From assembly GCA_003945285.1 (NCBI GenBank), contig AP019005.1:1364001-1428000 (forward strand): a stretch of 64,000 bases of DNA. Reading direction: 5' to 3'. Origin of the DNA: Hydrogenimonas sp. GTDB lineage: Bacteria; Campylobacterota; Campylobacteria; Campylobacterales; Hydrogenimonadaceae. The notes under the pieces were generated by a model. It had not been told where the DNA came from and made no database searches. It saw only the letters and a program-made list of their open reading frames with translations. Position numbers and translations under genes: made by a program. Positions 11,954 to 31,204 of this stretch are shown here, in pieces (position 1 is the first letter of the stretch; every line of letters begins with the position of its first letter).

Positions 11954-12700
11954 ATGAAGATGAATCATATAGCGAAGATAGCTGCCGCCGCCCTGCTCAC
12001 TTTCGGAGCAACAGCTGCGATGGCTGTAATCACAGGAAGTAAACACGACCTTTCCGCAACAGGTGGTGGTACTATCAAGGCAACTGCAGGACAGAACAAT
12101 GACGAAATCTGCGTCTACTGCCATACACCTCACGCCGCCAACACCGACTTTACAGGTGCTCCCCTGTGGAACAAAGCGACTCCCGGCGGAACATTCACAA
12201 TGTACGGCGCTGCTGCGGCCGGTACAGCAGGGCAGACTATAGCAGGTACCGCAACAGAGGCTCAGCCAAGCGCACCTTCACTCGCATGTCTGAGCTGCCA
12301 TGACGGCGTAAGTGCAATCAACTCTATCGTAAACGCTCCCGGTTCAGGCGGATACGTTGCAGGTGGTCAGAATGTGGCATTCGGTACAGCCGCAGCCGGT
12401 ACAGCTGTCACTATGCCTGCAGGTGTAACACAAATCGGAACCGACCTTACAAACGACCACCCTGTATCAATCACTTATGTAGAGGGAGCAGCAAGCCTCA
12501 AGCCTGTTTCTACAGCAATTACCGGGTGGAGCGGTGCAACCACTATCGCCGGTCTTCTTAGAAACGGTAAAGTTGAGTGTGGAAGCTGTCACGATCCCCA
12601 CCTTGGTGAAAGTGATACATTCCTCAGAAGAAACAAAGCTACAGTCGGCGAAGCGAGTAACAAAGGCAGTGCAGTCTGTCTGACATGCCACGACAAGTAA
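11954..12700 (+). CDS. Secreted tetrahaem c-type cytochrome, paralog of 2885
   Basis: The 248-residue protein has a signal peptide (about 1-25, ending AMA) and four CXXCH sites in the order CVYCH, CLSCH, CGSCH, CLTCH. It closely matches the protein at 2885 in the ordered motifs GSKHDLS, CVYCHTPHA, APLWNKATP, CLSCHDGVSAINS, TNDHPVSI, EGAASLKP, CHDPH, CHDK. The mature protein is rich in Ala, Gly and Thr. It forms its own transcription unit (inverted-repeat promoter, strong RBS AGGAGG, terminator), which suggests it may be made in larger amounts than the downstream operon. Predicted role: periplasmic or extracellular electron carrier. Filament formation like Geobacter OmcE is possible but unproven. 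Confidence 0.92.
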   Translation: MKMNHIAKIAAAALLTFGATAAMAVITGSKHDLSATGGGTIKATAGQNNDEICVYCHTPHAANTDFTGAPLWNKATPGGTFTMYGAAAAGTAGQTIAGTATEAQPSAPSLACLSCHDGVSAINSIVNAPGSGGYVAGGQNVAFGTAAAGTAVTMPAGVTQIGTDLTNDHPVSITYVEGAASLKPVSTAITGWSGATTIAGLLRNGKVECGSCHDPHLGESDTFLRRNKATVGEASNKGSAVCLTCHDK

Positions 12701-12713
12701 GCGCTACAAACTG

Positions 12714-12753
12714 AAAAAATGGGAACGGTCTTTTGGCCGGGCCCATTTTTTTT
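12714..12753 (+). terminator. Intrinsic terminator of the tetrahaem gene
   Basis: AAAAAATGGG pairs with CCCATTTTTTTT, with an inner GGTC/GGCC stem; the eight-T run follows directly. It separates the 11954 gene from the following operon. Confidence 0.85.
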
Positions 12754-12850
12754 GCAGGTAGAATTGTCATGGGAAATCGAGATTTCTCAGAACAATTTTA
12801 CACGACAGACGGTTGTATACAGAGACGTACAACTGCCCACTACACGCCGA

Positions 12851-12879
12851 TTGCCTTGAAAACCATTCTTTGATATAAT
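12851..12879 (+). promoter_or_regulatory. Promoter of the NHL-cytochrome-porin operon
   Basis: TTGCCT (12851-12856) and TATAAT (12874-12879) are 17 bases apart, and the -10 is extended (TGA before TATAAT). A short inverted repeat, GTTGTA (12812-12817) and TACAAC (12828-12833), lies just upstream and might bind a regulator. Confidence 0.7.
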
Positions 12880-12916
12880 AAGCTGAAATCATAATTAGAC
12901 AAATGAGGGTTTGACT

Positions 12917-14011
12917 TTGAAAAGAACACTGCTGCTTCCATTATCCATCTTTTTTATTGCACTCTTCTATGGCGGGTGCGCGCAAAAAAATGCCGAAGAG
13001 ATTCGCATAATAATGCCGCCGCCGCCTGAGGAGCCGAGACTCTTTTATGTAGAGAGCCTGCGAGGAGAAGCCAGCTTCAAAGAGACGAAAGTACTGGACG
13101 CTCTTATCGGTAAAGAGAGCAAGGGCGTAGGGAAAAACCTTTTCAAACCCTACGGTGTAGCGGCCGAAGGAGATATCGTCTATGTTACTGATACTGCTAT
13201 CGGACTTGTATTCGCGATAGACAAGCCGAACAAGAAAGTTACATTTCTGGGGGACAGGCCTCCCGGTAAGCTGGCTCTCCCGGTAAGCATTGCAATAGGG
13301 AAAAACGGTTCAATTTATGTCTCCGACTCGAAGCTGAAAAAGGTTTTCGGTTACCGCAAGAGCGGTGCCCTCTTTTTTGCCCTTGGTGAAAAGGGGGAGT
13401 TCAGGCGGCCGTCCGGTATTGCGATCAACGAAAAGCTTAACAGGCTCTATGTCGTTGATACCAAAGCACACAATGTAAAAGTGTATGATTTGCTAAAAGG
13501 AGAGCTGCTTTTTGAATTCGGTAAAAGAGGCGTCGAAGAGGGTGAATTCAACTTCCCGACAAATATTGCCGTCGATCACAGGAACGACAATGTCGCGGTT
13601 GTCGATACCCAAAATTTCAGAGTACAGATATTTGACAAAGACGGGAACTTCCTGAGTAAATTCGGCCGACTGGGCGACAAGCCCGGAATGTTCTCCCGTC
13701 CGAAAGGGATCGGTATTGACTCCGAAGGGCACATCTATGTCTCCGATGCGGCATTCAACAACGTCCAGATCTTCGATGACAAGGGAAATATTCTGCTCTA
13801 TTTCGGAGGCGCTGGTTTCGGGCCGTCACAGTTCTACCTGCCGGCCGGAGTTTATGTAGATGAAAACGACCGTGTCTATGTTGTCGATTCGTTCAATGCA
13901 CGGGTACAGATATACCAGTATGTGAGTGAACGATGGAAGAAAAAGCATCCGGACGAGTATCGGAAGCTCAAGATGATCGAGGTCGAAAAAGATGAAGAGA
14001 AGAGCAATTAA
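12917..14011 (+). CDS. NHL-repeat lipoprotein
   Basis: The 364-residue protein has a lipoprotein signal ending in FYGGC (lipidated C21), then a proline-rich stretch (IIMPPPPEEP) and about six NHL-type repeats with the pattern P-x-G-(I/V)-A ... (I/V)YVxDxxxxxVxIF, expected to fold as a six-bladed beta-propeller. NHL propellers usually bind proteins or other ligands. TTG 17 at 12917 is chosen because GAGGG lies seven bases upstream; TTG at 12911 is too close to it. It overlaps the next gene by 20 bases. A second NHL protein lies at 17419. Likely anchored to the outer membrane and acting in assembly or docking of the cytochromes; this is inference from neighbours. Confidence 0.85.
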   Translation: MKRTLLLPLSIFFIALFYGGCAQKNAEEIRIIMPPPPEEPRLFYVESLRGEASFKETKVLDALIGKESKGVGKNLFKPYGVAAEGDIVYVTDTAIGLVFAIDKPNKKVTFLGDRPPGKLALPVSIAIGKNGSIYVSDSKLKKVFGYRKSGALFFALGEKGEFRRPSGIAINEKLNRLYVVDTKAHNVKVYDLLKGELLFEFGKRGVEEGEFNFPTNIAVDHRNDNVAVVDTQNFRVQIFDKDGNFLSKFGRLGDKPGMFSRPKGIGIDSEGHIYVSDAAFNNVQIFDDKGNILLYFGGAGFGPSQFYLPAGVYVDENDRVYVVDSFNARVQIYQYVSERWKKKHPDEYRKLKMIEVEKDEEKSN

Positions 14012-14681
14012 AACCCTACTCTCTCTATCTATCTTTGCAGTCACATCGACTGCAGGAGCAATCACGATAGGTGAAGAGCAGAGCGGCATATATCAGACCA
14101 AGCACAATCTTTTGAGGGGCATTGTTCTGCCAAAAGGCACAGAGGAGCCTGAACTATGTATATGGTGCCATATTCCGCATGATTCTCTCAGCGGAGACAC
14201 CAGCACGCCGAAATGGCTTAAGTATACATCCGACGAATCGTCATTCAACGTATACGGAATAGACTCGAACGCCACATCCGGATCCGGCAAGCCTATGCCC
14301 GATGTCATGGTCAGGGTCTGCCTAACCTGCCATGACGGTGTAAACGCTCCCGATATCGCCCTATTTTCCGAATCGGCCCCTCAGAAATTCAATAACAATA
14401 CAGCTTCACTCAGCACCGACCCTATATCAAAAGATGCATTCGTGCACAGCCATCCGGTAGGCAAAGAGTACGCACCATACAGTCCGGGCGGGAACAGGGC
14501 AAGCCTGAGGCCCGAGTCCCATATTCTGAAAGACTGGATAGGGGCTAAAACCATTCAGGACCTGGTATCGGAAGGCGTTGTAGGGTGCACCAGCTGCCAC
14601 GATCCACATACGACCAACGCACAATTTTTGAGAACCAGAAACAGTGACAGCAAACTGTGTAAGGGCTGTCACAATAAATAA
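13992..14681 (+). CDS. Secreted tetrahaem c-type cytochrome, diverged paralog
   Basis: The 229-residue protein has a signal peptide (about 1-23) and four CXXCH sites: CIWCH, CLTCH, CTSCH, CKGCH. It keeps the family order TKHNL, WCHIPH, CLTCHDGV, HSHPVG, SLRPESH, CHDPH, CHNK but is clearly further from the 2885 and 11954 proteins than they are from each other. It begins inside the NHL gene and is the second gene of the conduit operon, so it may be the periplasmic partner of the porin while the other two serve elsewhere. Distal haem ligands are probably the extra histidines, as in other bis-histidine multihaem cytochromes. Confidence 0.9.
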   Translation: MKRRAIKTLLSLSIFAVTSTAGAITIGEEQSGIYQTKHNLLRGIVLPKGTEEPELCIWCHIPHDSLSGDTSTPKWLKYTSDESSFNVYGIDSNATSGSGKPMPDVMVRVCLTCHDGVNAPDIALFSESAPQKFNNNTASLSTDPISKDAFVHSHPVGKEYAPYSPGGNRASLRPESHILKDWIGAKTIQDLVSEGVVGCTSCHDPHTTNAQFLRTRNSDSKLCKGCHNK

Positions 14682-14708
14682 TCCTCCGACAAAAAAGGAA
14701 AAGCGTAC

Positions 14709-15659
14709 ATGAAAAAGTTTATATTTTTATTCATCTCTCTAACTGCAGTATATCTATTTGCCTCATCGGATACGAATACGACCGGGAAGAACGGGGTGGT
14801 TGCTACAGTCAACGGATACAATATAACAAAGGCGGAGCTCGACAGGCAGGTCGGTATATTGATGCCCCGAAGTTTCTTCCACTCTACGGTAACACCGGAA
14901 AAGCTGAAAGAGGTTGAAAAAGATGCGCTCAAAGAGCTTGTAAAAAAGCATCTTCTCCTACAGTATGCAAAAAAGAGAGGATATAAAATCCCAGACTCCA
15001 TAGTCGAAAGGGAGGAGAAAAAGATAAAAAAGGCTTTCGGCTCCCAAGAGAGATTTGAAGCCGCTCTGAAGCGTTCAAACCTCACCTATGACGAGTTCAA
15101 AAAAGAGCTGCTAAACGATCTACTTATGCAGAAGCTCTACGACAAGGAGATCAAAACCGACCTGACCGAAGAGGATCTGAAAGAGTATTATGAGAAAAAC
15201 AAATATAAGTTCAAAGTGCCCGAGAAGATAAAGGTCAGAATAATATACGTTAGAAACGATCCGACAGACCCCAAGGGGCACGAAAAGGCACTCAAAAGGG
15301 CCCAAGAGGCACTTGATAAGATAAAAAACGGCGAAAATTTCGCGGATATAGCTTCAAAATATTCCAATGCGATGAGCCGCATAAAGGGTGGCGATATGGG
15401 TTTCGTTCACAAAGGGATGCTGGATGAACCTATAGAGAAGGTGGCCTACTCGCTAAAAAAAGGCGAAGTGAGCGATATCGTGGAGACGCCGAAAGGTTTC
15501 TATATTATCAAGCTCGAGGAGATATCCCCCGCTGTACAATTAGATTTTGACCAGGTTAAAGAGAACTTGAAAAAAGAGCTCAAAAGCAAGTATGAAAACA
15601 GGAAGCTTGAGGCTATTTTGAAGCAGATGAGGCAGAGTGCCGAAATCAAATACAACTAA
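14709..15659 (+). CDS. Periplasmic parvulin-type peptidyl-prolyl isomerase
   Basis: The 316-residue protein has a signal peptide (about 1-18), a SurA/PrsA-like N-terminal chaperone region (VNGYNITKAELDRQV...) and a rotamase domain at about residues 172-272 with KVRIIYVR, FADIASKYSNAMSRIKGGDMGFVHKG (in segments) and VETPKGFYIIKLEE. Such proteins help outer-membrane and secreted proteins fold. It lies between a tetrahaem cytochrome and a beta-barrel gene, so it probably assists their maturation. Secreted cytochrome and porin clusters of Geobacter also carry such isomerases, as I recall. No catalytic assignment beyond the domain is possible here. Confidence 0.9.
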   Translation: MKKFIFLFISLTAVYLFASSDTNTTGKNGVVATVNGYNITKAELDRQVGILMPRSFFHSTVTPEKLKEVEKDALKELVKKHLLLQYAKKRGYKIPDSIVEREEKKIKKAFGSQERFEAALKRSNLTYDEFKKELLNDLLMQKLYDKEIKTDLTEEDLKEYYEKNKYKFKVPEKIKVRIIYVRNDPTDPKGHEKALKRAQEALDKIKNGENFADIASKYSNAMSRIKGGDMGFVHKGMLDEPIEKVAYSLKKGEVSDIVETPKGFYIIKLEEISPAVQLDFDQVKENLKKELKSKYENRKLEAILKQMRQSAEIKYN

Positions 15660-15674
15660 TACCGGTCGAGAGTC

Positions 15675-17405
15675 ATGAAGAGAAGATTTCTTGTCTCCCT
15701 GCTCACAATCACGGCGCTTCCCGCTCTACTCTGTGCCGACTACACCAGAGGAGTCTACGGAAAGCTCGAATATGTTCTGATGCACGACAACGTAAGCGAC
15801 AAATACAACAGTACAGACAGAAAATCGTTTGTGCAGAACTATCAGATCGGATATGAAAGCTATATATACAGTCCAAGGCTTTTGACTTACGATCTGGGAT
15901 TCTCTTTCTACGTCGACAACACAACATCTGATGTCAATAACAACGGCTCCTCTACAAAAAGCGAAAACGAAACAAAACATACCAACTACAAAGCTTACCT
16001 TCATTTCTTGAAAAAAGCCGACTATCCGTTTACAGTCTACTATGAGAAGATAGACTCCCCGCTATGGAGTACGTCACCTGGCGGCACTACTCTTGTAACG
16101 TATAAAACCGACAAAAGCGGCATATACGGCAGAGTAAAGACGGATCTTTTCAACCTCAGTTATGAGTATAGAGAGTCGAAGACGGAAAAAACCGAATCTT
16201 TTGCCTATGAAAACGGGGATTCGAAGAGATTCGCATTAGGCATTAATAAGCAGTTGGATGAGAACAGAACAGCCAGTTTCAACTACAGCCACGAGATCAG
16301 AAACTACTACAGGACCGACTTGGGACTGAACTACACGGATAGCTGGAATGACGTCATAGACAGTGCCGTAGCGACATACTCGTGGTTAATCTCCAAGAGA
16401 CTGGCATTCTCAAGCGCGGTCAACTACCTGAAAAACGATTATCTCGATTATCAGAACCTGACAGGAACCGTATCGCTTAACTGGACACCCAGCAAAAAAC
16501 ACTCCGAGACTTTTTCCATAGTTGCCGACAATACGAAAACAAAAGAGGGTACCAATACGTTTGTATCGCTGAATGAGAGCGGGAACTACAAGTTCTCAAA
16601 AAGCTTCTCCACCAACCACGGGTTCCAGATATACAATGCCAGCGGCAACCTATACAATATGACATTGGCAAGCGCAACCCTCGGTTCCAACTATTTAAAA
16701 GAGTTTTCCGAGACTCTTTCCACGTCATTCGGACTATCCGTAACCGGACGTGCCGAAAAATACGACTACAGTGACCAGAACGTTACCATTAGAGACCGAA
16801 ACATGTTCTCCTACACTCTCTCAACCAGTACAACGAAACAGTTTCCCGAGGGTAGGTCAAACCTATCGGCCGGACTATCCTACTATCAACTCATCTCAAC
16901 GACCGACGACGCCACACAGCGCATAACCGCAAACACCATATATAACAAAAAATTCACTGATCAGCTATCCTATTATCTGAAAATGTACGGTACTTTCGAC
17001 AAAAACACCTACACAGCCGCCGATAACAACGAAACCACAAGAACGACAAACATCTTTAGTGTAGACAACGCCCTCAACTACTGGAGAGCTGTCGGCTATA
17101 ACGGCAAGATGACTCTGAAAGCCGGTGTTGTGTACTCTGTGGGTACTTATGCCAACAGGACAAACCCATACGGTACCTTCACTTTCTTCTACATGTTAAG
17201 GAGAGACCTGATGTTCAAGACACTCGCACGGGTCTCGAGCGATACGGCATACAACGTAACATCATATACCGGATCTACCGATCTGATTTATAGAATAAGA
17301 AAGATAGAGATGAGAACCGGCATACAGATGTCAAGGCAGACGGGTGGAGGCTTCGGTGAGAGAAACCACATAAACTACTACTTCAGAATAAGCAGAAAAT
17401 TATAA
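15675..17405 (+). CDS. Outer-membrane beta-barrel protein
   Basis: The 576-residue protein has a signal peptide (about 1-21, LLCA|D) and then almost only alternating amphipathic strands rich in Tyr, Ser, Thr and Asn, with repeated patterns such as YQIGYESYIYSP and LTYDLGFSFYVDN. It ends in a strand with aromatic residues (NYYFRISRKL). This composition is typical of outer-membrane barrels; I estimate more than 20 strands. It has no CXXC of the MtrB type and no haem motif. Within an operon of multihaem cytochromes and NHL proteins, it is the likely porin that houses a cytochrome across the outer membrane. No named family was recognised. Confidence 0.82.
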   Translation: MKRRFLVSLLTITALPALLCADYTRGVYGKLEYVLMHDNVSDKYNSTDRKSFVQNYQIGYESYIYSPRLLTYDLGFSFYVDNTTSDVNNNGSSTKSENETKHTNYKAYLHFLKKADYPFTVYYEKIDSPLWSTSPGGTTLVTYKTDKSGIYGRVKTDLFNLSYEYRESKTEKTESFAYENGDSKRFALGINKQLDENRTASFNYSHEIRNYYRTDLGLNYTDSWNDVIDSAVATYSWLISKRLAFSSAVNYLKNDYLDYQNLTGTVSLNWTPSKKHSETFSIVADNTKTKEGTNTFVSLNESGNYKFSKSFSTNHGFQIYNASGNLYNMTLASATLGSNYLKEFSETLSTSFGLSVTGRAEKYDYSDQNVTIRDRNMFSYTLSTSTTKQFPEGRSNLSAGLSYYQLISTTDDATQRITANTIYNKKFTDQLSYYLKMYGTFDKNTYTAADNNETTRTTNIFSVDNALNYWRAVGYNGKMTLKAGVVYSVGTYANRTNPYGTFTFFYMLRRDLMFKTLARVSSDTAYNVTSYTGSTDLIYRIRKIEMRTGIQMSRQTGGGFGERNHINYYFRISRKL

Positions 17406-17418
17406 AGGGAGAACCCTC

Positions 17419-18426
17419 ATGAAACGCTCTATATGCTATGCCCTGTTCCTGTTTCTGACGGCCACATCACTTCATGCCGGCAACGGACCGGTTTGGCCTC
17501 AACCTCCGGAAGAGGCCAGAATAAAGTTTGAAAAAAAGATTACCAATGCCGAAGATCTAAACATCAAAAAGGGTTTTTTCTCAAAGATATGGGACTTTTT
17601 TGCAGGCTCCGAAGATACAGAGCTTATAAAGCCTTTCGGCATACATGTCGACGGCGGTAAGATATATGTGACCGATATTGGGCTCTCTAGCCTGGTGATT
17701 TTTGACAAAGACAATAATAAAGTACGGGTGATCCAGGGGTTCAAGTCGGAAAAATTCTCTTACCCGGTAGATGTAGCTACAGATGCTAAAGGAAATATCT
17801 ATTTGACCGATTCTGTCAAAAAGGCTGTATATGTCTTTAACAAAGAGGGAATAGCGTTGAAAAAAATCGGTTCGGAAAACGTTTTCAAAAGGCCTACCGG
17901 AATCGCGATTGACAAAAAAAGGGGGATCCTCTACGTTAGCGATACACTCTCTTCACAGATAAAAAGATTTTCGCTAAGGGAGAGTAGAGAGCTTGAGCCT
18001 GTAGGGTCGCACGGAAATCTGCCGGATCAGTTCAACAGGCCGACATTCATAACCGTAGATGAGGATGGGAGGCTCTATGTATGCGACTCCATGAACTTCA
18101 AAATAAAGATATTCGATAAAAACGGTAAATTCGACAGTGCTTTCGGCAGACTTGGAAACACTATCGGAAGTTTTGCCAGTCCCAGAGGGGTTGCTGTTGA
18201 CAGGGAGGGTAATATATATGTAACCGATACTCTCTTCAATGCGGTCCAGATATTCGACCAGAAAGGCAACCTTCTTCTGGTTTTCGGTTCCAAGGGAACC
18301 GGGGACGGTGAGTTCTACGGACCGGAAGATATAGCTATATCCAAGGATGGAAGGGCCTATGTAACCGACTCATATAATATGAGGATTGAGCTTTTCGACA
18401 TTTTAGGTTATAATAAAAACAAATGA
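17419..18426 (+). CDS. Periplasmic NHL-repeat protein
   Basis: The 335-residue protein has a signal peptide (about 1-20, LHA|G), the segment VWPQPPEEARIKFEKKI that often precedes this type of propeller, and about six NHL repeats (IHVDGGKIYVTDIGLSSLVIF, VDVATDAKGNIYLTDS and similar). Unlike the NHL protein at 12917 it has no lipobox cysteine, so it is likely soluble in the periplasm or secreted. The two are paralogs in one operon, on either side of the cytochrome, isomerase and barrel genes. It ends ten bases before the large cytochrome ATG. Proposed role: scaffold or docking protein; inference only. Confidence 0.85.
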   Translation: MKRSICYALFLFLTATSLHAGNGPVWPQPPEEARIKFEKKITNAEDLNIKKGFFSKIWDFFAGSEDTELIKPFGIHVDGGKIYVTDIGLSSLVIFDKDNNKVRVIQGFKSEKFSYPVDVATDAKGNIYLTDSVKKAVYVFNKEGIALKKIGSENVFKRPTGIAIDKKRGILYVSDTLSSQIKRFSLRESRELEPVGSHGNLPDQFNRPTFITVDEDGRLYVCDSMNFKIKIFDKNGKFDSAFGRLGNTIGSFASPRGVAVDREGNIYVTDTLFNAVQIFDQKGNLLLVFGSKGTGDGEFYGPEDIAISKDGRAYVTDSYNMRIELFDILGYNKNK

Positions 18427-18436
18427 GGTGATGATC

Positions 18437-20548
18437 ATGGGAAAACTATCGTTTGGATTGTTATCGGTATCACTGTTGACACTCACCTGCTCTTACGGAA
18501 CCATTCTTAATACCAAGCACAATCTCTCCGCATCGGGTATGGGTACGATAAAAGCTACAAGTGAACAGGAGGTATGTGTATTTTGCCATATACCCCACAA
18601 TGCGCAACCGGGTAAACCTCTTTGGAATAGAGCCATGCCCACCTCCTCGTACATAATGTACGAGAGTGAATATCTCAAGCGCACCAACTATCCTCTCCCC
18701 GCCGACCTGGGAATTACGGAAGGTACTCCCGGATCGCTATCGAGGCAGTGCCTCAGCTGCCATGACGGTACAGTAGCCGTAGGATCTATCTATATGGTCA
18801 GGGGGACGGTACTTGGTAACACCCTGATAGATATGACCGGAGTGGGGTTGGACGGAATGATGCCGATCGATGCAAACGGTTTCATAGGGACAGACCTCAC
18901 AATTCACCACCCCGTTGGAATAGAGTATGACCCAGCCAACGTAAAAAATTTCGATATCGGAAGTAAAACTATAGAGCTCAAAACCGTCCCGGACGCACCG
19001 CTTAAACTCTATACATATAACGGTAAAAAGTATGTAGAGTGCGCATCCTGTCACGATCCGCACCTTGAGAGCTTCAAATTTTTGAGAGTCCATAACAGTC
19101 CCAACAACGCGGTTAATGTCAAGAACACATGCACTTCATGCCATGACAAAAACCCGGGTACAACTCTGCCCACCGTACATGAAATTGCAACCTCCACATA
19201 TCTGGACCAGGCGGTAAAAGATAGATACAACGGCGGCGGAACAGTAACCGTAGCGGACCTCTACTGCGCAAACTGCCATACTCCGCATAACGGCGAAGGG
19301 AAACCCTATCTGCTCAGAAAGGTAGAGCAGAATACATGCTACATGGGAGCTGCCGGCACAAGATCTACCGCACCGTGCCACGGAACGGGAACAACATGGG
19401 CCGGAAACGATATAGAGTCGGTCCTCAACCGCCCGTTTTCACACCCGGTCAATACAATTGACGGTGTGCATACCAATTTCGATACCCTCTACGGATACGG
19501 CTCCAGCGAAACAGACCCTGCCGCAAGCCACAGTGTCAAGTGGAGCGACTCCAAACATGCCGAGTGTATGGACTGCCACAACCAGCACAGAGCCGGAGGA
19601 AACAACCACATAGGTACCCAGAGCGCCAGTGCGACAAAATGGTATCCTGATACACCGTCAAATGCCGTTTCCGATGTACTTAGAAACGTACAGGGTGTGG
19701 AGCCGACATGGCCAGCAAGATGGACCCAGCCGACATCATTCACTACACTTGCCTCATCTACCAAAGAGTACCAGATCTGTCTCAAATGCCACTCCTACTG
19801 GGCTCTTGGTCCCACACTGGCACAGCAGGCAGGCAAAGTCGCTACCGGTGCTACTGACAACTGGATAGATGTCGAAGGTGTAAGGGCTACCGACCAGGCG
19901 TTTGAGTTCAATCCCAACAACAAATCCGCCCACCCTGTTGTTATGGCCCTAAACGATATGCCCGGCTCCTACGAACCAAAAGCCGTAAGAGTCGAAGCGC
20001 TTCTCTACCCGTGGAATCAGAATCCGGGAACACAGACAATGTACTGTGCAGACTGCCACGGTGCCGACAATGAAGATAGCGGAGATCCCAAAGGGCCACA
20101 CGGTTCCAGTTACAACTTCATGCTAAAAGGACCCAACAAGTACTGGCCCACGAAGCCGGACGGAACGCTATTTTCCACCGGCGACATACAGACCGACGGA
20201 AGCGTTCCGGACCTCTTTTGCGCAAACTGCCACAACCTCAACTACCCGCACAAACAGTGGTGGTGGAGAATGGCAAGGATCGATATAGCGTGCATACAGT
20301 GCCATGTCGCCGTTCCTCACGGGTCACCGGTATCCAGGCTTATCGGTTACGCAAACTTTCCTGAGCCTTACAACTATAACGGGAACTCTCTCGTAATATA
20401 CGGCTACAAAAAGGCGAATCCGCAAGGCAACTACGCTTCAAGCAACGTATATGCTCCCGGCTGCGGCGGAGGCGGATGCCACGGCAGACAAGACTACCCA
20501 TATGCCGACAACGGGGCAGGATATGATCCTGTTGACCCGCTTCCTTAA
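18437..20548 (+). CDS. Large secreted multihaem cytochrome (10-12 haem sites)
   Basis: The 703-residue protein has a signal peptide (about 1-21) and ten canonical sites in this order: CVFCH, CLSCH, CASCH, CTSCH, CANCH, CMDCH, CLKCH, CADCH, CANCH, CIQCH. Two further non-standard sites are visible: CYMGAAGTRSTAPCH (CX12CH) between the fifth and sixth, and CGGGGCH (CX4CH) near the C-terminus. Up to 12 haems are therefore possible. The N-terminal 230 residues repeat the tetrahaem plan of the small paralogs (TKHNLS, FCHIPHN, PLWN, CLSCHDG, IHHPVG, CHDPH), so the protein looks like a tetrahaem unit with an added multihaem tail. ATG 18437 is chosen from GAGG eight bases upstream. Likely outer-membrane or extracellular. 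Confidence 0.9.
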   Translation: MGKLSFGLLSVSLLTLTCSYGTILNTKHNLSASGMGTIKATSEQEVCVFCHIPHNAQPGKPLWNRAMPTSSYIMYESEYLKRTNYPLPADLGITEGTPGSLSRQCLSCHDGTVAVGSIYMVRGTVLGNTLIDMTGVGLDGMMPIDANGFIGTDLTIHHPVGIEYDPANVKNFDIGSKTIELKTVPDAPLKLYTYNGKKYVECASCHDPHLESFKFLRVHNSPNNAVNVKNTCTSCHDKNPGTTLPTVHEIATSTYLDQAVKDRYNGGGTVTVADLYCANCHTPHNGEGKPYLLRKVEQNTCYMGAAGTRSTAPCHGTGTTWAGNDIESVLNRPFSHPVNTIDGVHTNFDTLYGYGSSETDPAASHSVKWSDSKHAECMDCHNQHRAGGNNHIGTQSASATKWYPDTPSNAVSDVLRNVQGVEPTWPARWTQPTSFTTLASSTKEYQICLKCHSYWALGPTLAQQAGKVATGATDNWIDVEGVRATDQAFEFNPNNKSAHPVVMALNDMPGSYEPKAVRVEALLYPWNQNPGTQTMYCADCHGADNEDSGDPKGPHGSSYNFMLKGPNKYWPTKPDGTLFSTGDIQTDGSVPDLFCANCHNLNYPHKQWWWRMARIDIACIQCHVAVPHGSPVSRLIGYANFPEPYNYNGNSLVIYGYKKANPQGNYASSNVYAPGCGGGGCHGRQDYPYADNGAGYDPVDPLP

Positions 20549-21041
20549 AAAAAAAGCGTGGCTCTTTGCACTTTTGCTGACGGCCACGCTGACCACAGCC
20601 TCAGAAACTGGTTCCGGCCCCGAAAACCGTATAGAAAACACCATACTCTCATACAACCGTGCACTTATAGAGGCTGCGAAAGATCCGAACTTTCTGAAAG
20701 ATTTCAGCGACAAGAGCAGATTCGAGCCTTTCGCGGAGGAAAAAGTTGCACAAAAGCTCTATATTTGGATAAAATCCTGGCATGAAAACAATCTCTACAT
20801 GGATGCGGAGCTTCTCGAGATCGAATTCGAAAAAGTCGATATTACCGATAAAAAGGCCGAGGTTTCTACCAGGGAGATATGGAAATACCGCTACTTCCGG
20901 CATGTAGATATTAACAGGACCACAGAGGCTTGGCCTCCGGCGAAGATCTATTATAAAGTGAAGTATCTTTTGAATTTTACCGACGGCAACTGGAAGATCG
21001 AGAGTATAAAAGTGCTCTCGGAAAGAGAAGAGAAACTTTAA
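20523..21041 (+). CDS. Small secreted protein, possibly NTF2-like fold
   Basis: The 172-residue protein has a signal peptide (about 1-24: RFLKKKAWLFALLLTATL) and a mature part of about 145 residues. The pattern of a helix with YNRALIEAAKDPNF followed by paired strands (DAELLEIEFEKVDI, KAEVSTREIWKYRY, YKVKYLLNF, WKIESIKVLSE) suggests an NTF2/SnoaL-like alpha+beta fold, but I do not recognise the family. Its ATG lies inside the cytochrome gene (26-base overlap), so it is tightly coupled to it and probably serves the same complex. It has no cysteine and no haem motif. Confidence 0.7.
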   Translation: MILLTRFLKKKAWLFALLLTATLTTASETGSGPENRIENTILSYNRALIEAAKDPNFLKDFSDKSRFEPFAEEKVAQKLYIWIKSWHENNLYMDAELLEIEFEKVDITDKKAEVSTREIWKYRYFRHVDINRTTEAWPPAKIYYKVKYLLNFTDGNWKIESIKVLSEREEKL

Positions 21042-21453
21042 AAGAGTTTGATTAAGCTTTACCTTAACTCAAAATTTGACAACTACGGGGATTAGGCTGG
21101 AGAAATATCGTTCAAAAAAACGTTATTTGCCCACCGCGGGACGTAGAAGAGGTCAGTTTTTTTGGAGATTTTACGTCGGGAGAGGGTTGATACCGTTTTA
21201 GATGAAGATTTTGCGCAAGGTTATACATTAAACCAAAATAAAAATTCTCTACTGATACAGTTTTGTCTTGCAATGCTTACCTGTAAAGCTATAGAGTACA
21301 TATTAACGCTTCCGAAATGGTTAGTATTCTGCCGAAAAACTGTTAAAAGGCTTATTGTTACAGCTCTTTTCCGGTATGCCTAATAAGCCATTTCCGAGAC
21401 GGTTCAAAAAATGCCGATGCCACGAGCATAGAAAAAACAACAAAAGGGGACTT
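21042..21453. other. Intergenic region before ccsBA
   Basis: No gene is supported. A 73-codon reading frame at 21162-21383 has no good ribosome site and no recognisable composition. AAAAGGGGAC at 21441-21450 is the ribosome binding site of ccsBA. No convincing promoter or terminator was found. Confidence 0.6.
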
Positions 21454-24400
21454 ATGAACAAAATTATAAAGTCGGTCTGGTCACTGCTGATATCTATGAA
21501 AACCATGGTGACCTTGACACTCATCTTCGCAATCACCATCGCTGTAGCCACTTTCATAGAGAATGACTACGGCATAGAGACGTCGTGGGCTCTCGTCTAC
21601 GGGGCAAGATGGTTCGAGATTCTCCAGCTGCTACTCGCTGTGAATCTTATCGGCAATATTATCCGCTTCAAGCTATACAAACTGAAAAAGCTTCCAGCTT
21701 TCATTTTTCACGTAGGTTTTCTGGTAATTCTCCTCGGTTCCGCGATGACCCGCTATATGGGATATGAAGGCATACTGCACATACGTGAGGGGAACAGCGA
21801 AAACCGTATGCTCTCGGCAGACTCTTTTGTTCAGGTGACAGCCACTACAAAAGACGGAAAGATCGTACATGAAGAGAAGAAAATCTTTATCTCGGCCATC
21901 GGCGGCAACGACTTCGACATCTCTTTGGAAGTCGATGGGAAACCGCTTCACGTCAAGTATAAGAAGTTCATAAAAGATGCGGTTCAGACTGCAGTGGAAG
22001 ATCCCAACGGGAAGCCTATGGTGGTCTATACCGTCGTGACACCCTCCGGCCCGGAAAAATATTTCCTGCAAAAAGGTGAATATACCGATCTCGGCCCCTA
22101 TGTCATGCTGTTTGGAGATAATGAACCAGGGCCGATAAAAAAACCGTATATTCATATTTTTATGAAAAACGGCAAATTCTTCTTCAAATCCAACATCGAT
22201 ATAGGATGGTTCAAGATGCAGGATCAGAGCAAAGGTATCTTCAAGGCCTATGAAGAGCACCCTTTCAAAGCGAAGATGATGTATCTTGTAAACGGTATAC
22301 AGATGGTACCGCAGATGACATTGACAAAAGGTGTCAAAAAGCTTGTTCCGCTGGCAGAATATGAAAACAGAATGAACCTCAAAATGGACAATCCCCTGTC
22401 AGCGCTCGTCGTAGAGGTTGAGTATGACGGAAAGAGGAAAGATGTTGCGTTAATGGGTATGGGCAAGCGCTACAAAGGCTTTACCGAAAATGTAGACTTC
22501 GGCGACATCAAAGTAGCACTGGAGTGGGGCTCCAAAGAGATAGAGCTCCCCTTCTACCTCTATCTTCAAAAATTTGTCATGGAGAAGTACCCCGGCTCCA
22601 TGAGCCCCTCTTCATACGAGAGCCACGTTATACTTTACGACGAGAAAAACGGAGTGAAAATGCCATACAGAATCTACATGAACAACACTCTGGAGTACGG
22701 CGGATTCAAATTCTTCCAATCCAGCTACGACCAGGATGAGAAGGGTACCGTTCTCTCAGTTAACCATGACCCGGGAAAATGGCCTACATATATTGGATAT
22801 ATTCTGCTTTCACTGGGACTTTTCCTGAACCTGTTCAACCCTTACAGCCGTTTCGGCAAACTATCTAGAATCCGCTACATAGAGAATGTAAAAGGTGGTA
22901 CCGCGGCAGCGGTGACAGCCATACTGCTTGTTCTCTCTGGAAACAATCTCATAGCGGCACAGAACCATGCCGGGCACAACCATGAAGTGTTAGATATGGA
23001 GAAGATTATAGAAACGGTCAAGAAGATAGACAGAAAACATGCCGACAACTTCGGCTCCATTCTACTTCAAGGCCCGGACGGAAGGATCAAGCCGATCGAT
23101 TCCGCCGCTATAGATATTCTGAATAAAATTCACGGCTCGGACAAGATGCTTGGGCTTACACACAATCAGATAATCCTGGGGATGGCGACCAAACCTTCAT
23201 ACTGGAAGCGTATCAAACTGATCAAGGTTAAACATCCGGAAGTCAAAAGGCTTTTGGGCATATCTCCAGATGAAAAGTATTTCGCTTTCATAGACATATT
23301 CGATAAAAACGGAAACTACAAACTCCAAAAGGCTGTAGAAGAGGCTTCCAGGAAAAGACCTGCTGAACGGGGCACATTCGACAAGGAGCTCCTCAAAGTA
23401 GATGAACGGCTCAATATCGCCTATATAGTCTTTACCGGGGACTTTATGAAGGTATTCCCTCTTAAAGACCACCCAAATAAAAAGTGGTACGCTCCCGCAG
23501 AAGCTCTTAAGACATTCCCTCCCGCAGAGGCTAACGAAATAAGAAAGATACTGGAGAAAAATTTCGAAGGTCTTAACAGAGGGCTACAGACCGGAGACTG
23601 GAGCCTGGCCGATGAGGCCGTCGATGAAATCAAAGCCTACCAGGCCAGATACGGAGCGGATATCATACCGCCAAAAAGTCGTGTTGAGGCTGAACTGCTC
23701 TATAATAAGCTTGACCTCTTCAACCGGTTGGTGCCTGTCTATCTTCTTTCAGGGCTGATCCTTCTGTTCCTCATTTTCCTGAGGCTTGTCCGTCCAGGCC
23801 TAAATCTAAAAACTCCTACCCGGATAGTGGTCGCCATCCTGGTTGTGGCATTTATCGCACATACATTCAACCTTGGACTTAGATGGTATATTGCCGGGCA
23901 CGCTCCATGGAGCAACGGTTATGAAGCTATGCTCTACATATCCTGGGCTATAATCCTGTCAGGTATACTCTTTGCGAAACAATCCGAGTTTGCTGTATCT
24001 TCAACGGCTATATTCGCCGGAATTACGCTGTTTGTGGCACACCTGAGCTGGCTCGATCCACAGATTACGACCATGGTCCCGGTACTTAAATCCTACTGGC
24101 TTACGATACACGTTTCGGTCATTACGGCAAGCTACGGCTTTTTGGGCCTCAGTGCGCTGCTGGGGCTGATCGCTCTTGTACTATATATTATGCTTGGCTT
24201 CAGCAAGGCAGAAGAGACGAAACGTCAGATTGTTCTGAACATCAAAGAGACCGCCAGAATCAATGAGATGTCGATGATTGTCGGTCTTTCACTTCTTACG
24301 GTAGGAAACTTCCTGGGAGGAGTGTGGGCGAACGAGTCTTGGGGACGCTACTGGGGATGGGACCCCAAAGAGACCTGGGCCCTGGTTACTATTCTTGTCT

Positions 24401-24681
24401 ATACGGCGGTTCTTCACCTAAGATTTGTTCCGAAACTATGGAATACATTCAATTTCACCGTACTTTCGGTAGTGGCGTACAGCTCCGTCATAATGACCTA
24501 CTTCGGCGTCAATTACTATCTCTCGGGACTCCACTCATACGCGGCAGGTGATCCGGTACCGGTACCTACATGGGTCTACTATGCTGTCGCTATCGTAGCC
24601 GCCCTTATTCTGGCTGCATACAGAAACGAAAGCCGCTTCGAAAAACTTCAAAAAGAGGTCCTTAAAAGGTCTTCCTCCTAG
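21454..24681 (+). CDS. ccsBA: Fused cytochrome c synthase CcsBA (system II)
   Basis: The 1075-residue membrane protein joins a ResB/CcsB-type N-terminal half to a CcsA/ResC C-terminal half, as is common in Campylobacterota. It moves haem to the periplasmic side and attaches it to cysteines of apocytochromes. The haem-handling WWD motif is at about residues 963-976 (WGRYWGWDPKETWAL), flanked by conserved histidines in AHTFNL, AHLSW and LTIHVS. Several transmembrane segments lie at both ends, with a large periplasmic domain between. ATG 21454 follows AAAAGGGGAC. It lies directly after the multihaem operon. Wolinella has CcsBA isoenzymes dedicated to unusual haem motifs, so this copy may serve the non-standard sites encoded nearby. 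Confidence 0.95.
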   Translation: MNKIIKSVWSLLISMKTMVTLTLIFAITIAVATFIENDYGIETSWALVYGARWFEILQLLLAVNLIGNIIRFKLYKLKKLPAFIFHVGFLVILLGSAMTRYMGYEGILHIREGNSENRMLSADSFVQVTATTKDGKIVHEEKKIFISAIGGNDFDISLEVDGKPLHVKYKKFIKDAVQTAVEDPNGKPMVVYTVVTPSGPEKYFLQKGEYTDLGPYVMLFGDNEPGPIKKPYIHIFMKNGKFFFKSNIDIGWFKMQDQSKGIFKAYEEHPFKAKMMYLVNGIQMVPQMTLTKGVKKLVPLAEYENRMNLKMDNPLSALVVEVEYDGKRKDVALMGMGKRYKGFTENVDFGDIKVALEWGSKEIELPFYLYLQKFVMEKYPGSMSPSSYESHVILYDEKNGVKMPYRIYMNNTLEYGGFKFFQSSYDQDEKGTVLSVNHDPGKWPTYIGYILLSLGLFLNLFNPYSRFGKLSRIRYIENVKGGTAAAVTAILLVLSGNNLIAAQNHAGHNHEVLDMEKIIETVKKIDRKHADNFGSILLQGPDGRIKPIDSAAIDILNKIHGSDKMLGLTHNQIILGMATKPSYWKRIKLIKVKHPEVKRLLGISPDEKYFAFIDIFDKNGNYKLQKAVEEASRKRPAERGTFDKELLKVDERLNIAYIVFTGDFMKVFPLKDHPNKKWYAPAEALKTFPPAEANEIRKILEKNFEGLNRGLQTGDWSLADEAVDEIKAYQARYGADIIPPKSRVEAELLYNKLDLFNRLVPVYLLSGLILLFLIFLRLVRPGLNLKTPTRIVVAILVVAFIAHTFNLGLRWYIAGHAPWSNGYEAMLYISWAIILSGILFAKQSEFAVSSTAIFAGITLFVAHLSWLDPQITTMVPVLKSYWLTIHVSVITASYGFLGLSALLGLIALVLYIMLGFSKAEETKRQIVLNIKETARINEMSMIVGLSLLTVGNFLGGVWANESWGRYWGWDPKETWALVTILVYTAVLHLRFVPKLWNTFNFTVLSVVAYSSVIMTYFGVNYYLSGLHSYAAGDPVPVPTWVYYAVAIVAALILAAYRNESRFEKLQKEVLKRSSS

Positions 24682-25852: not shown

Positions 25853-25895
25853 GAATGCCGGCGAACGGCTGAATTCCGCCGGCTTAGCGGACGTA

Positions 25896-27003: not shown

Positions 27004-28023
27004 CTATTTCTTATGGCAACGCTTACACCACAACATAGTCCCCTTTCCCATATATCCTCTCAGCATAAATCCGTTATTGGAGACATGAGGGTTATGACAG
27101 CTTATGCAACTCAACTCTCTTCCATCCTCGCTGGTTGGGTCTTTGACACCTTTTGTTGGATGAGATTTTCCTGAAAAAGTTCTTACGACATGGCCTCTGT
27201 CTTTTTTGTCGGTATGGCAGGAGGTACATAGATACCATACATTTTTCCTCAAAAATTTATTGCTTATATTCGATCCGTGGGGATCATGACACCTGTTACA
27301 CCTGCCGTTATCTACAGGTTCGTGCCTGTAGTTCTCACTGTAGAATTTCTTTTTGAACTCTTTATGGCATGAAAAACATCTATCTGCGACCGGGTCGGGT
27401 GATATATATTTTGACTGCCCCCTGTATTTCCTGTTGAATCTACCGGTTTCACCAGTATGGCAGCTTGTCGCACAGAGCCAATTGGCTGCAGGCGCATGTA
27501 GAAATTTGTCCGTTGTTATCGGATAGTGGCAGCTATAACAGTTCGAATCGGTTATATTTTCAAATGCGACACCCTCCTCTTCGTTCATGTTCATATTATG
27601 GCACCCTGAGCAAACTTTCTCCTTTTCTGTTTTATGGAAAAACTGTTTATGGAAAAATCTTGTGGAGTATTTGAACTTTTTATCAATAAGTGAACCCCGG
27701 TATACCGTTCTCACAGCTTTGAACAGACTCCTGTTTCGGTTGAAAACTTCCACTGCAATTTTATTGACCCCTTCGTACAACTCTATGGTGAAACAGAAAA
27801 ATTTTTTCTCTTTCGGTATAGTACGTTCAACGATCTCACCGTCACCTACCCTGACAGTAACACCGGTCGCACCACTCTCTTTCAAATCAATAACCACCGC
27901 GGCATACCTTGACATATAGATATCCTGGCCGTAAGGTTTTAGCAGCTCTATACCGGTATCTGCGGCCGCCAAATCTCCTACCGTGGCTATAAAAACCAGA
28001 ATCGCCGCTAATAGCTTTTTCAT
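27004..28023 (-). CDS. Secreted octahaem cytochrome with N-terminal beta domain
   Basis: The 339-residue protein has a signal peptide (about 1-21), an N-terminal domain of about 100 residues that looks like a beta-sandwich (strands around MSRYAAVVIDLKES, VTVRVGDGEIVE, NKIAVEVFN), then haem sites CSGCH, CYSCH, CATSCH (CX3CH), CFSCH, CNRCH, CTSCH, CISCH and CKRCH: seven canonical and one variant. It is a paralog of the upstream gene at 28023. Its ATG overlaps that gene's stop (TAATG), with a strong GGGGGGAGG site before it. An in-frame upstream ATG is rejected because the strong site points to 28023. Last gene of the cytochrome operon. Likely a periplasmic carrier. Confidence 0.9.
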   Translation of the reverse strand: MKKLLAAILVFIATVGDLAAADTGIELLKPYGQDIYMSRYAAVVIDLKESGATGVTVRVGDGEIVERTIPKEKKFFCFTIELYEGVNKIAVEVFNRNRSLFKAVRTVYRGSLIDKKFKYSTRFFHKQFFHKTEKEKVCSGCHNMNMNEEEGVAFENITDSNCYSCHYPITTDKFLHAPAANWLCATSCHTGETGRFNRKYRGQSKYISPDPVADRCFSCHKEFKKKFYSENYRHEPVDNGRCNRCHDPHGSNISNKFLRKNVWYLCTSCHTDKKDRGHVVRTFSGKSHPTKGVKDPTSEDGRELSCISCHNPHVSNNGFMLRGYMGKGTMLWCKRCHKK

Positions 28024-29087
28024 TATCCTCCCCCCTCGGATAATGTTATACAAACATTTTCTATACCTCTATATTTTTCACGAAGAAGATATGGCCTGTC
28101 AGACGAGTGCGGATCGTGACAGGTGATACAGACAAAACTCCCTTCGGCAAATTTTCGATCTATCTTCTCTCCCTGCAGATACTTTTTTTTAAATATCTCT
28201 ATATACTTTCTTTTGGAGCTTTTGTCGGCATGGCAGGAGGTGCATAGAGCCCAAACTTTTTCGCGCAGAAAATTCTTGTTAACGTCGGAGGAGTGTGGGT
28301 TGTGACATAAATTACACTTCCCTGCACCCACAGGGTCGTGTATATATCTCTTCGAGTTCCATTTCTTGTTGTTCTTTTTATGACACTTGAAGCACGTATC
28401 GCCTATCGGGTCAGGATAGAGGAACTTCGATCTCCCGCTATACTTTCTGTTTTTGACACCGGTTTTCCCATTGTGACACGGTAGACAGATAAAATTAACG
28501 GTCGGTGCATGGGCATATTTTTTGTAAAGCAGAGATTGGTGACACTCGAAGCAGTTGGACTCTGATATATCGTAAAATGCAACACCCGGTTCCTCGTTAA
28601 CACTCATATCGTGGCACAGGTCACACCTCTTTTCATTTTTCTCGTTATGAAAAAATTTTTTTTCGAACCCTGGCGGCACCACTCTATAGTATTTGGATAA
28701 AAAAGCCCGCCTGAATATCTTCACTTTCCGCTTGGCGACCAGCTTACCATCTTTGAAGGCTTCCGCTCTTATTGAGTGTTCCCCGAAGGAGAACCTGAAA
28801 AGGTAGTGATAGACATCTCTATCCTCTTCTGTTCTTATCACGGCCCTCTCGTTTTCACTGCTGTAGAGTTTTATGGTATCGACCCTATCGAGGTCGATAC
28901 CTATTGAAACGTCTATATACTCCTCCTCGTAAACACCCTTGTCGAAAGGCTGAATTATGGAGAGTATATCTGGTGATACTGCCGTATCAGACTGCTCTTT
29001 CACAACCTCTGATGCATAGATTGCAGTCGAATAGGATGCAAAAAGAAGAATAATCAACAACAATTCCGCTATTATCTTCTTTTGCAT
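28023..29087 (-). CDS. Secreted heptahaem cytochrome with lost terminal haem site
   Basis: The 354-residue protein has a signal peptide (about 1-25), an N-terminal beta domain of about 110 residues like its paralog at 27004 and seven CXXCH sites: CDLCH, CFECH, CLPCH, CFKCH, CNLCH, CTSCH, CITCH. Where the paralog has its last site (WCKRCHKK) this protein ends VCITLSEGGG: the first cysteine is kept but the second cysteine and histidine are absent. The first haem sites are spaced as in the paralog. It follows the 12-haem gene by ten bases and is coupled to the next gene. Proposed as a periplasmic electron carrier. Confidence 0.88.
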   Translation of the reverse strand: MQKKIIAELLLIILLFASYSTAIYASEVVKEQSDTAVSPDILSIIQPFDKGVYEEEYIDVSIGIDLDRVDTIKLYSSENERAVIRTEEDRDVYHYLFRFSFGEHSIRAEAFKDGKLVAKRKVKIFRRAFLSKYYRVVPPGFEKKFFHNEKNEKRCDLCHDMSVNEEPGVAFYDISESNCFECHQSLLYKKYAHAPTVNFICLPCHNGKTGVKNRKYSGRSKFLYPDPIGDTCFKCHKKNNKKWNSKRYIHDPVGAGKCNLCHNPHSSDVNKNFLREKVWALCTSCHADKSSKRKYIEIFKKKYLQGEKIDRKFAEGSFVCITCHDPHSSDRPYLLREKYRGIENVCITLSEGGG

Positions 29088-29096
29088 CGTTTCACC

Positions 29097-30653
29097 CTAC
29101 TTTTTAAATACTTCTTCACTTAACTTGTTTTTCTGCTCAACCCTGTCGTACTCATACTTCTTGTGACACGCAGGCTGACAGGATCCTCCCGACTTCGTAC
29201 CTACATATCTCATCGGGAACTTGATACCGCCGAACTCCGTATATCTCCTGATCAGGTGAGGGTATTTGGAGGCATGCTCGTCGTGACATACACGGCATGC
29301 CCTACCCTTCTTACTGGCGACATGCAGATAGTGAAGATTCACATCTCCGTCACGGAACTTGGTAATCTTGTCGTTTTCGGTAAGTTTCGTCGAGAACTTC
29401 TCCGGTTTATGACATTTGAAACAGATAAAATCCTTGCCCTTTTTCTTGAGATCGGTATAGAAGTCCGTAGTATAGGATCTTCTGAGAATACTGAAATGGT
29501 TGGATCCGTGCGGGTTGTGACAGGCGGCACAACCACCCTCTTTTCTTACATCTTTTATAGGCTTGTGCCAGTTTGGATTCTGTTTCAGATGCTCGGCCAT
29601 ATTCATGAGAAGGTAACCGTCTTCATCCGACTTGACCTCTTTGTTATGGCAGGTCAGACACATCTTCACCTGCTGCTTTCTCAAGATACCCTTATGGTTG
29701 GTCGAGTGCGGATCGTGACACTCCAGGCACTTGTTTTTGGAATCAGTTATAGCACCGTGCTTATATTTGACCTCTTTGATCCACTTCTGCATATCGACAT
29801 GCTTCTCCAGCTTCGAGTGGCAGTCGAGGCAGAGGTTCATCTTGCCGTCATCTTTTAATAGCTTTTTAAAGCTTGCGGAGTGCGGCTCGTGACACTCGAC
29901 GCAGCTCTTCTCAGCCGGTTTGTGCTTGAACGCACCGTTCATGTTTACGGTTACCTTGATCTTCCTCTTGTTGCCGGGCTCGTGGCACTTCAGGCAGAGA
30001 TTGTTCACGGATTCTGCCTTGAGAAGATTTTTGGCATTGGACTGGTGGGGATCGTGACAATCCAGGCATCTCCCCTGTTTTACAGGTTTATGGTTGTACT
30101 TTTTGCTATATCTGACTTTATGGCATTTGTAACAGAGCTCTTCAATATTTTTCGTAATGAGTTTGCCAGGCTTTGCCCCGGCCGAAACATGACAGAGTTC
30201 ACACGCACCCATTTTGAACGGGGGGTGGAGTACTTTTTTCAGCGGCTTGAACTTCTGGGGGAGATCTTCCAGCTTCATGAGCTTGGCGACTCTGGCATTA
30301 GTCTTCGTATGTTTCAGCTTTATCTCTTCTTCAAGCTTCTGTTTCGTTATCTCCAGGGCCTCTTGTGTCTTTTTCCTTATTTCAAACAGCTTCTCTTTCT
30401 TTTTTACCGTTATTCCTTTACCGATCTCTTCGGCTATTTTGGTTACATTGACCTCTTTAAGCTCCTCTTCGCTGATTTCGGCATGGGTTGGAAAATATTC
30501 GTGCGGGCCCTCTTTGATACCGAACAGAATACTTTTAAATATACTTTCCGTTCTTTCAATCTTTTTTACAACGTCTACCGTCGTCACAATATAGAGCCCC
30601 GCCCCTGCAACGATCAGAAACACCGTTAGAAAAACGATATCTTTTATTTTCAT
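29097..30653 (-). CDS. Membrane-anchored 12-haem cytochrome
   Basis: The 518-residue protein has one N-terminal hydrophobic segment (about residues 5-23), most likely an uncleaved anchor, then a charged, partly coiled region (about 60-125), then eleven CXXCH sites (CELCH, CYKCH, CLDCH, CLKCH, CVECH, CLDCH, CLECH, CLTCH, CAACH, CFKCH, CRVCH) and one CX3CH (CQPACH). CHDPH/CHEPH/CHNPH patterns are typical of doubled-CXXCH proteins. It shares the anchor, the LPQxFxPLxK linker and the first three haem sites with the small protein at 30684. The second ATG (30653) is chosen because AAAGG lies seven bases upstream. Likely carries electrons from the inner membrane across the periplasm. Confidence 0.9.
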   Translation of the reverse strand: MKIKDIVFLTVFLIVAGAGLYIVTTVDVVKKIERTESIFKSILFGIKEGPHEYFPTHAEISEEELKEVNVTKIAEEIGKGITVKKKEKLFEIRKKTQEALEITKQKLEEEIKLKHTKTNARVAKLMKLEDLPQKFKPLKKVLHPPFKMGACELCHVSAGAKPGKLITKNIEELCYKCHKVRYSKKYNHKPVKQGRCLDCHDPHQSNAKNLLKAESVNNLCLKCHEPGNKRKIKVTVNMNGAFKHKPAEKSCVECHEPHSASFKKLLKDDGKMNLCLDCHSKLEKHVDMQKWIKEVKYKHGAITDSKNKCLECHDPHSTNHKGILRKQQVKMCLTCHNKEVKSDEDGYLLMNMAEHLKQNPNWHKPIKDVRKEGGCAACHNPHGSNHFSILRRSYTTDFYTDLKKKGKDFICFKCHKPEKFSTKLTENDKITKFRDGDVNLHYLHVASKKGRACRVCHDEHASKYPHLIRRYTEFGGIKFPMRYVGTKSGGSCQPACHKKYEYDRVEQKNKLSEEVFKK

Positions 30654-30683
30654 CCCCATACCTTTTTCAATTTTTCAAAACTC

Positions 30684-31193: not shown

Positions 31194-31204
31194 AATCCGC
31201 TCCT

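Follow-up and report, generated by a model that had tools for sequence, protein, structure and literature searches.

Organization of the locus

The DNA analyzed here is a stretch of 64,000 nucleotides from Hydrogenimonas sp. (contig AP019005.1, positions 1,364,001 to 1,428,000), referred to below as the window, whose numbering is used throughout unless another locus is named. It contains a plus-strand set of genes for exported cytochromes and companion proteins related to those of the nanowire protein OmcE and of the undecahaem electron transfer (Uet) system. The first gene, tet1 (11954..12700), encodes an OmcE-like tetrahaem cytochrome with four CXXCH motifs. It is followed by genes for an NHL beta-propeller lipoprotein, NHL1 (12911..14011; PF01436, E 1e-31), with a YGGC lipobox-like motif recognized by eye and probably a TTG start codon at 12917; a second OmcE-like tetrahaem cytochrome with four CXXCH motifs, tet2 (13992..14681); a periplasmic, UetB-like parvulin peptidyl-prolyl isomerase (PPIase) with a SurA-like N-terminal domain (14709..15659; PF13616, E 2e-21; PF13624, E 1e-18); a UetC-like outer-membrane beta-barrel (15675..17405), modeled by AlphaFold2 with 28 strands and a mean predicted local distance difference test score (pLDDT) of 89.6; a second exported NHL protein, NHL2 (17419..18426; PF01436, E 3e-35); a UetJ-like cytochrome with 10 to 12 haem sites (18428..20548); and a conserved small exported protein (20523..21041). 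Family scans assigned the proteins encoded at 11954, 13992, and 18428 to the Paired_CXXCH family and left both the barrel and the small protein without a Pfam or NCBIfam match. All genes listed by the initial annotation of this region were recovered at the positions given there by the open reading frame check and the family scans. The gene overlaps that it described are also present, between NHL1 and tet2 (20 bp) and between the gene of the large cytochrome and that of the small protein, which likely starts at 20523. Export of the proteins, which it had likewise proposed, is in agreement with signal-like N-terminal sequences, as judged by eye.

The unit extends past 21041, where the initial annotation ended, to 24681. 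The additional gene (21454..24681) encodes a fused CcsBA (ResB-CcsA) cytochrome c haem lyase (PF01578, E 9e-42; PF05140, E 2e-25); its reading frame opens at 21355, with a likely start at 21454.

The sites flanking tet1 indicate that it forms a transcription unit of its own. An intrinsic terminator (12711..12752, plus strand), consisting of a strong hairpin and a T-run directly 3' of tet1 with a folding energy of -23.7 kcal/mol, separates the gene from the machinery operon, and a comparable hairpin and T-run are found in four loci of relatives (L025, L026, L030, and L031). The operon running from NHL1 to the small protein is preceded by an extended -10 promoter-like site (12851..12879, plus strand; TTGCCT-17-TATAAT, 10/12), of which TTTGATATAAT is retained in L025, L026, and L030. 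The proposal that the first tetrahaem cytochrome is separately controlled is thus supported by a terminator after tet1 and a promoter-like site before NHL1, both recurring in close relatives. tet1 is monocistronic and encodes the probable major nanowire subunit; a subunit transcribed apart from, and ahead of, its assembly operon is the layout that would be expected for a major filament protein. Between terminator and promoter-like site lies a near-palindrome or inverted repeat (core 12771..12788, within the stretch 12755-12800) of sequence GTAGAATTGTCATG(A/G)GAAATCG(A/C)GATTTCTCAGAACAATTTTAC. It occurs once in the window, is nearly letter-identical with its flanks in L025 and L026, and is possibly a regulator site.

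Homology of the cytochromes with OmcE

OmcE is a tetrahaem cytochrome that forms filaments in which one haem is ligated across subunits (PMC12307469, PMC12954529). Among solved structures, the nearest to Tet1 were 9YUQ (E 3e-24) and OmcE 7TFS (E 2.2e-22), and the same two entries were nearest to Tet2 (E 2e-16 and 6.3e-14, respectively). The 10-12-haem protein had OmcE 7TFS as its sole strong match (E 1.7e-27), which was confined to residues 8-221. Thus, the large cytochrome consists of an OmcE-like tetrahaem domain and an added C-terminal multihaem part, with 6 to 8 haems. Homology extended over the whole tetrahaem domain for Tet1, Tet2, and the N-terminal domain of the large cytochrome. In the alignment, the columns of the four CXXCH histidines and of the four distal histidines contained His in 82 to 84 of 84 OmcE-like domains and in 27 or 28 of the 28 Campylobacterota sequences; Tet1 retained all eight ligands (8/8). 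The entry 9YUQ, at least as close as OmcE to both tetrahaem cytochromes, is a putative multihaem cytochrome solved with 16 chains and may be another nanowire.

A third OmcE-like tetrahaem cytochrome with four CXXCH motifs, of the same clade as Tet1, is encoded at 2885..3577 (plus strand) and has homologues in L030, L031, and L034 (48-65% identity). Upstream of this gene, at 42-1878, are genes for a response regulator and a histidine kinase, and similar pairs adjoin the OmcE-like genes of the same three loci. This regulator/kinase pair may control the system.

In a tree of 87 sequences built by a quick method, in which the deep branches lack resolution, the tetrahaem cytochromes of Campylobacterota formed one group (Shimodaira-Hasegawa-like approximate likelihood ratio test, SH-aLRT, 90). 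The N-terminal domains of their large cytochromes formed a separate group (SH-aLRT 100), apart from the tetrahaem proteins. A recent fusion with a local tetrahaem cytochrome, such as a copy of tet1, is therefore rejected as the origin of the large protein, and the paralogues arose within the phylum. The undecahaem proteins of Beta- and Gammaproteobacteria likewise bear an OmcE-like N-terminal domain.

The count of 10 to 12 haem sites given for the large cytochrome held on inspection: the protein has ten CXXCH motifs, a CX12CH motif (C304...C317-H318) that is invariant in 10/10 homologues, and an additional C-terminal site that is variable and reads CX4CH in this genome. It is 52-83% identical in relatives.

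The beta-barrel

The best Foldseek match of the barrel model was MtrB (6r2q_B; E 2.7e-9, TM-score 0.41). This match was not accepted as membership in the MtrB family because of the low TM-score and because the next matches were generic barrels and ushers. A profile of the Campylobacterota barrels matched the Uet-type barrels of Beta- and Gammaproteobacteria and Nitrospirota (E 8.5e-14 versus 0.11 for the reversed-profile control). The barrel accordingly belongs with the Uet-type barrels and is very unlikely to be an unrelated porin, the outcome that would have refuted the initial annotation.

Conservation across Campylobacterota

The barrel was detected in 10 of the 397 Campylobacterota genomes, distributed over 6 of 68 genera, and in 6 of 18 genomes of the genus under study. 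The genes recur in the order OmcE-like tetrahaem cytochrome, NHL1, (tet2), parvulin, barrel, NHL2, large multihaem cytochrome, small protein, and CcsBA wherever the contig reaches that far; the block is therefore conserved as a unit, which the initial annotation had put forward for verification. Since barrel identity among the six genera falls to 20-31%, with 20% in the most distant locus, while the order is the same, this conservation is old. Copies of tet1 adjoining NHL1 in relatives are 55-91% identical, NHL2 stands between barrel and large cytochrome in all loci read, the small protein has eight homologues at the same place (29-64% identity), and CcsBA immediately follows the unit in every locus whose contig extends to it. 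Among the loci read, tet2 is restricted to two families (f1 and f9).

tet1 was found in 11 of the 397 genomes, with strong matches to the large cytochrome in the same set. The eleventh genome, G405, is fragmented, and the barrel was not found in it. Apart from this genome, the OmcE-like subunit is confined to genomes harboring the rest of the unit.

Neighboring genes

An operon on the minus strand (27004..31921) encodes, in the order listed, a NapC/NrfH-like tetrahaem cytochrome (PF03264, E 2e-29) and cytochromes with 3, 11, 7, and 7 haems, and probably constitutes a feed from the quinone pool to the periplasm. A pair of genes for 11-haem and 8-haem cytochromes is located in the same genome just left of the window (14124-16742 of locus L009); its paralogues lie at 27004-30659, behind the NapC/NrfH-like gene. 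Homologues of the 11- and 7/8-haem proteins occur upstream of tet1 in loci that we call Sulfurovum-like (the name is inferred), where 11-haem and 8-haem genes directly precede that of the tetrahaem cytochrome, and in Geobacter OmcE loci. The 7-CXXCH cytochrome encoded at 28023-29087 (minus strand) ends in ...NVCITLSEGGG and its neighbor, at 27004-28053, in a CXXCH site; a frameshift close to the 3' end of the former, which overlaps the next gene, may have removed its last haem site. Between CcsBA and this operon, two Sel1-like repeat proteins are encoded in opposite orientation (25151-26666); a comparable pair is located after CcsBA in both L030 and L032.

A probable nanowire system and its alternatives

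In view of the conserved gene set, the OmcE homology with its haem ligands, the separate transcription unit of tet1, and the association with CcsBA and periplasmic multihaem cytochromes, we interpret the locus, with a probability of roughly 0.7, as an OmcE/Uet-type cytochrome-nanowire system equipped with assembly and feeding parts, for which we infer polymerization, electron direction, and substrate. Tet1 would be exported by way of the large barrel or next to it and, like OmcE, would polymerize head-to-tail to form a filament on the surface. The parvulin and the NHL propellers might aid folding, export, or anchoring, and CcsBA would load the haems. The 10-12-haem protein could connect filament and cell, docking with Tet1 at one end and reaching the barrel and the periplasm with its extra haems, and the NapC/NrfH-like tetrahaem cytochrome together with the 11- and 7/8-haem cytochromes would form the electron path between quinone pool and filament base. 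Electrons may be disposed of to a solid acceptor, as in Geobacter, or taken up from a solid donor, as proposed for Uet; the possible substrates include elemental sulfur, Fe(III)/Mn(IV) oxides, sulfide minerals, cathodes, and partner cells. The initial annotation had proposed a conduit across the outer membrane. A role in extracellular electron transfer is supported, but the locus is better read as a nanowire system.

Several points weigh against this interpretation. Homology with OmcE does not prove polymerization, and both filament and current are predictions from the genes. The predicted structure of the 10-12-haem protein is very poor (mean pLDDT 29), so that its docking is a guess. The match between the barrel and that of the Geobacter OmcE loci is weak (E 4.5e-7) and was downgraded because its score is no better than those of self-reversed controls. 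The genome also contains secretins and pseudopilins; export need not, therefore, use this barrel, and pilus-free export cannot be claimed. Finally, the Geobacter loci read have no parvulin, nor a 10-12-haem protein, within ~10 kb.

The principal alternative is a static porin-cytochrome conduit of the Mtr/Pcc type, with the 10-12-haem protein in or on the barrel, the tetrahaem cytochromes acting as monomeric periplasmic or surface partners, and no filament. The 28 strands of the barrel, its best Foldseek match to MtrB, and the adjacency of the barrel, NHL, and multihaem genes would all suit such a plug, and Uet is described as a porin-multihaem complex (PMC10734462). However, the nearest solved relatives of Tet1 are a filament (OmcE) and an assembly of 16 copies of one cytochrome chain (9YUQ), tet1 and the barrel gene belong to separate transcription units, the similarity to MtrB amounts to a TM-score of only 0.41, and the presence of three OmcE-like subunits in one genome suits a surface polymer at least equally well. 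Because of the OmcE homology, a polymerizing surface cytochrome with assembly machinery is the likelier explanation, and we consider the static conduit unlikely. Still less credible is a purely periplasmic role, as an electron buffer or in the respiration of soluble substrates, in which case the barrel would be an unrelated porin. Periplasmic multihaem enzymes are common in Campylobacterota, and a catalytic activity outside the cell is a prediction; nevertheless, the barrel co-occurs with tet1 at a constant place, the subunits are OmcE homologues, and Nitrospirota and Betaproteobacteria, too, have the trio of PPIase, NHL, and barrel genes together with OmcE-like genes. We consider this explanation very improbable.

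A further possibility, compatible with a nanowire, concerns the direction of flow: Fe(II), sulfide minerals, metal, or a partner cell would be the electron source for respiration with nitrate or oxygen, a role that has been proposed for the Uet system of Tenderiales. Autotrophic H2 oxidizers make up the likely host group, which fits uptake. The closest gene-for-gene match is also the Uet system of cathode- and iron-oxidizing bacteria (PMC10734462, PMC12575090). Conversely, the 11-haem, 8-haem, and CcsBA genes tie the locus equally to the OmcE loci of Geobacter, which serve Fe(III) reduction, and an undecahaem cytochrome has been reported in a Mn-reducing Dechloromonas too. We regard inward flow as a serious possibility falling somewhat short of even odds. 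A more specific form of the nanowire interpretation is that Campylobacterota make OmcE-type nanowires with a dedicated exporter and that the UetJ-like protein is a built-in connector, its N-terminal domain acting as a fixed first (or last) subunit and its C-terminal haems bridging the barrel to the periplasm. We propose this connector tentatively and think it less likely than not; if it were true, the Uet and OmcE systems would be one machine in at least five phyla.

Implications for vent Campylobacterota

Vent Campylobacterota, which are major autotrophs, are known to use soluble or gaseous donors and acceptors. The present locus suggests that some vent bacteria can exchange electrons with extracellular solids, and a conserved nanowire-type locus would open solid minerals or partner cells to part of this group. 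It also links the literatures on OmcE nanowires and on Uet-mediated uptake through shared parts, namely the OmcE domain of the large cytochrome and the accompanying NHL, barrel, and CcsBA proteins. For the question of how cytochrome nanowires reach the surface and are connected to the cell, it provides a short list of candidates that can be tested (parvulin, both NHL proteins, barrel, and large cytochrome). The type of system is already known (OmcE/Uet); the Campylobacterota version is new, although not categorically so. In agreement with the initial annotation, which knew of no described counterpart in the phylum, the literature searched contained no description of either OmcE or Uet from Campylobacterota, although several key papers lay outside that search and absence is unproven.

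Comparison with known systems

The locus shares with the MtrCAB/Pcc conduits a large barrel, for which MtrB was the top Foldseek match, and multihaem cytochromes. It differs from them by its NHL and parvulin genes and by cytochromes without an MtrA/OmaB-type family assignment: in the search for an MtrA/DmsE-family decahaem cytochrome, the DmsE-family NCBIfam model scored 35 bits versus a cut-off of 192 bits. Shen et al. in 2025 reportedly described a Geobacter cluster, osc, whose prolyl isomerase, beta-propeller, and outer-membrane channel assemble OmcS nanowires. The three types of component are those of the present locus, but OmcS is a different, hexahaem cytochrome.

An OmcE sequence scan provided 52 loci for comparison, from Desulfuromonadia, Beta- and Gammaproteobacteria, Acidobacteriota, Nitrospirota, and others. 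Geobacter was represented by loci L142-L144, from close relatives of G. sulfurreducens, with the nearest OmcE 64% identical. OmcE loci of this type have the order ccsB, ccsA, 9-11-haem cytochrome, 8-haem cytochrome, NHL, OmcE, (NHL), and a barrel of ~740 amino acids. An OmcE-family subunit with the eight histidines and adjoining NHL, barrel, 9-11-haem, 8-haem, and CcsB/CcsA genes are common to both, every part being found either in this genome or in the corresponding locus of relatives; in Geobacter, however, the barrel is larger and weakly similar, and CcsB and CcsA are split rather than fused. The Geobacter analogy drawn by the initial annotation therefore holds for the OmcE loci, apart from the parvulin, while the best fit is Uet, which it had not named. 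In some Gammaproteobacteria and Acidobacteria (L068, L071, L078, and L081), OmcE-like genes lie beside genes for cytochromes with 18 to 24 CXXCH motifs, together with NHL and undecahaem genes, which is another arrangement of the same parts.

The beta-proteobacterial and Nitrospirota loci have the order NHL, tetrahaem cytochrome, parvulin, large barrel-like protein, further genes, NHL, and a multihaem cytochrome with an OmcE-like N-terminal domain. This arrangement is the published Uet cluster, uetABCDEFGHIJ, of Tenderiales and Gallionella (Eddie et al., 2022, cited in PMC10734462 and PMC12575090). In the former source, UetA is the tetrahaem cytochrome, UetB the PPIase, UetC the barrel, UetDEG trihaem cytochromes, UetHI the NHL proteins, and UetJ the undecahaem cytochrome. 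Counterparts of UetA, UetB, UetC, and UetH/I occur together in the Campylobacterota locus, as does a large multihaem cytochrome with an OmcE-like N-terminal domain, in an order comparable to that of the Beta- and Gammaproteobacteria and with a related barrel profile. No trihaem gene of the UetDEG type was found between 11954 and 24681; a single 3-haem gene (30684-31208) belongs to another operon. The Campylobacterota large cytochrome, of comparable size and with a homologous N-terminal domain, has ten CXXCH motifs, the CX12CH motif, and the variable site instead of eleven CXXCH motifs. The fused CcsBA, the small exported protein, and the 11- and 8-haem cytochromes are additions with respect to Uet. 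With parvulin and large multihaem cytochrome as in Uet, and CcsBA and 11- and 8-haem cytochromes as in the Geobacter OmcE loci, the Campylobacterota locus combines parts of both systems.

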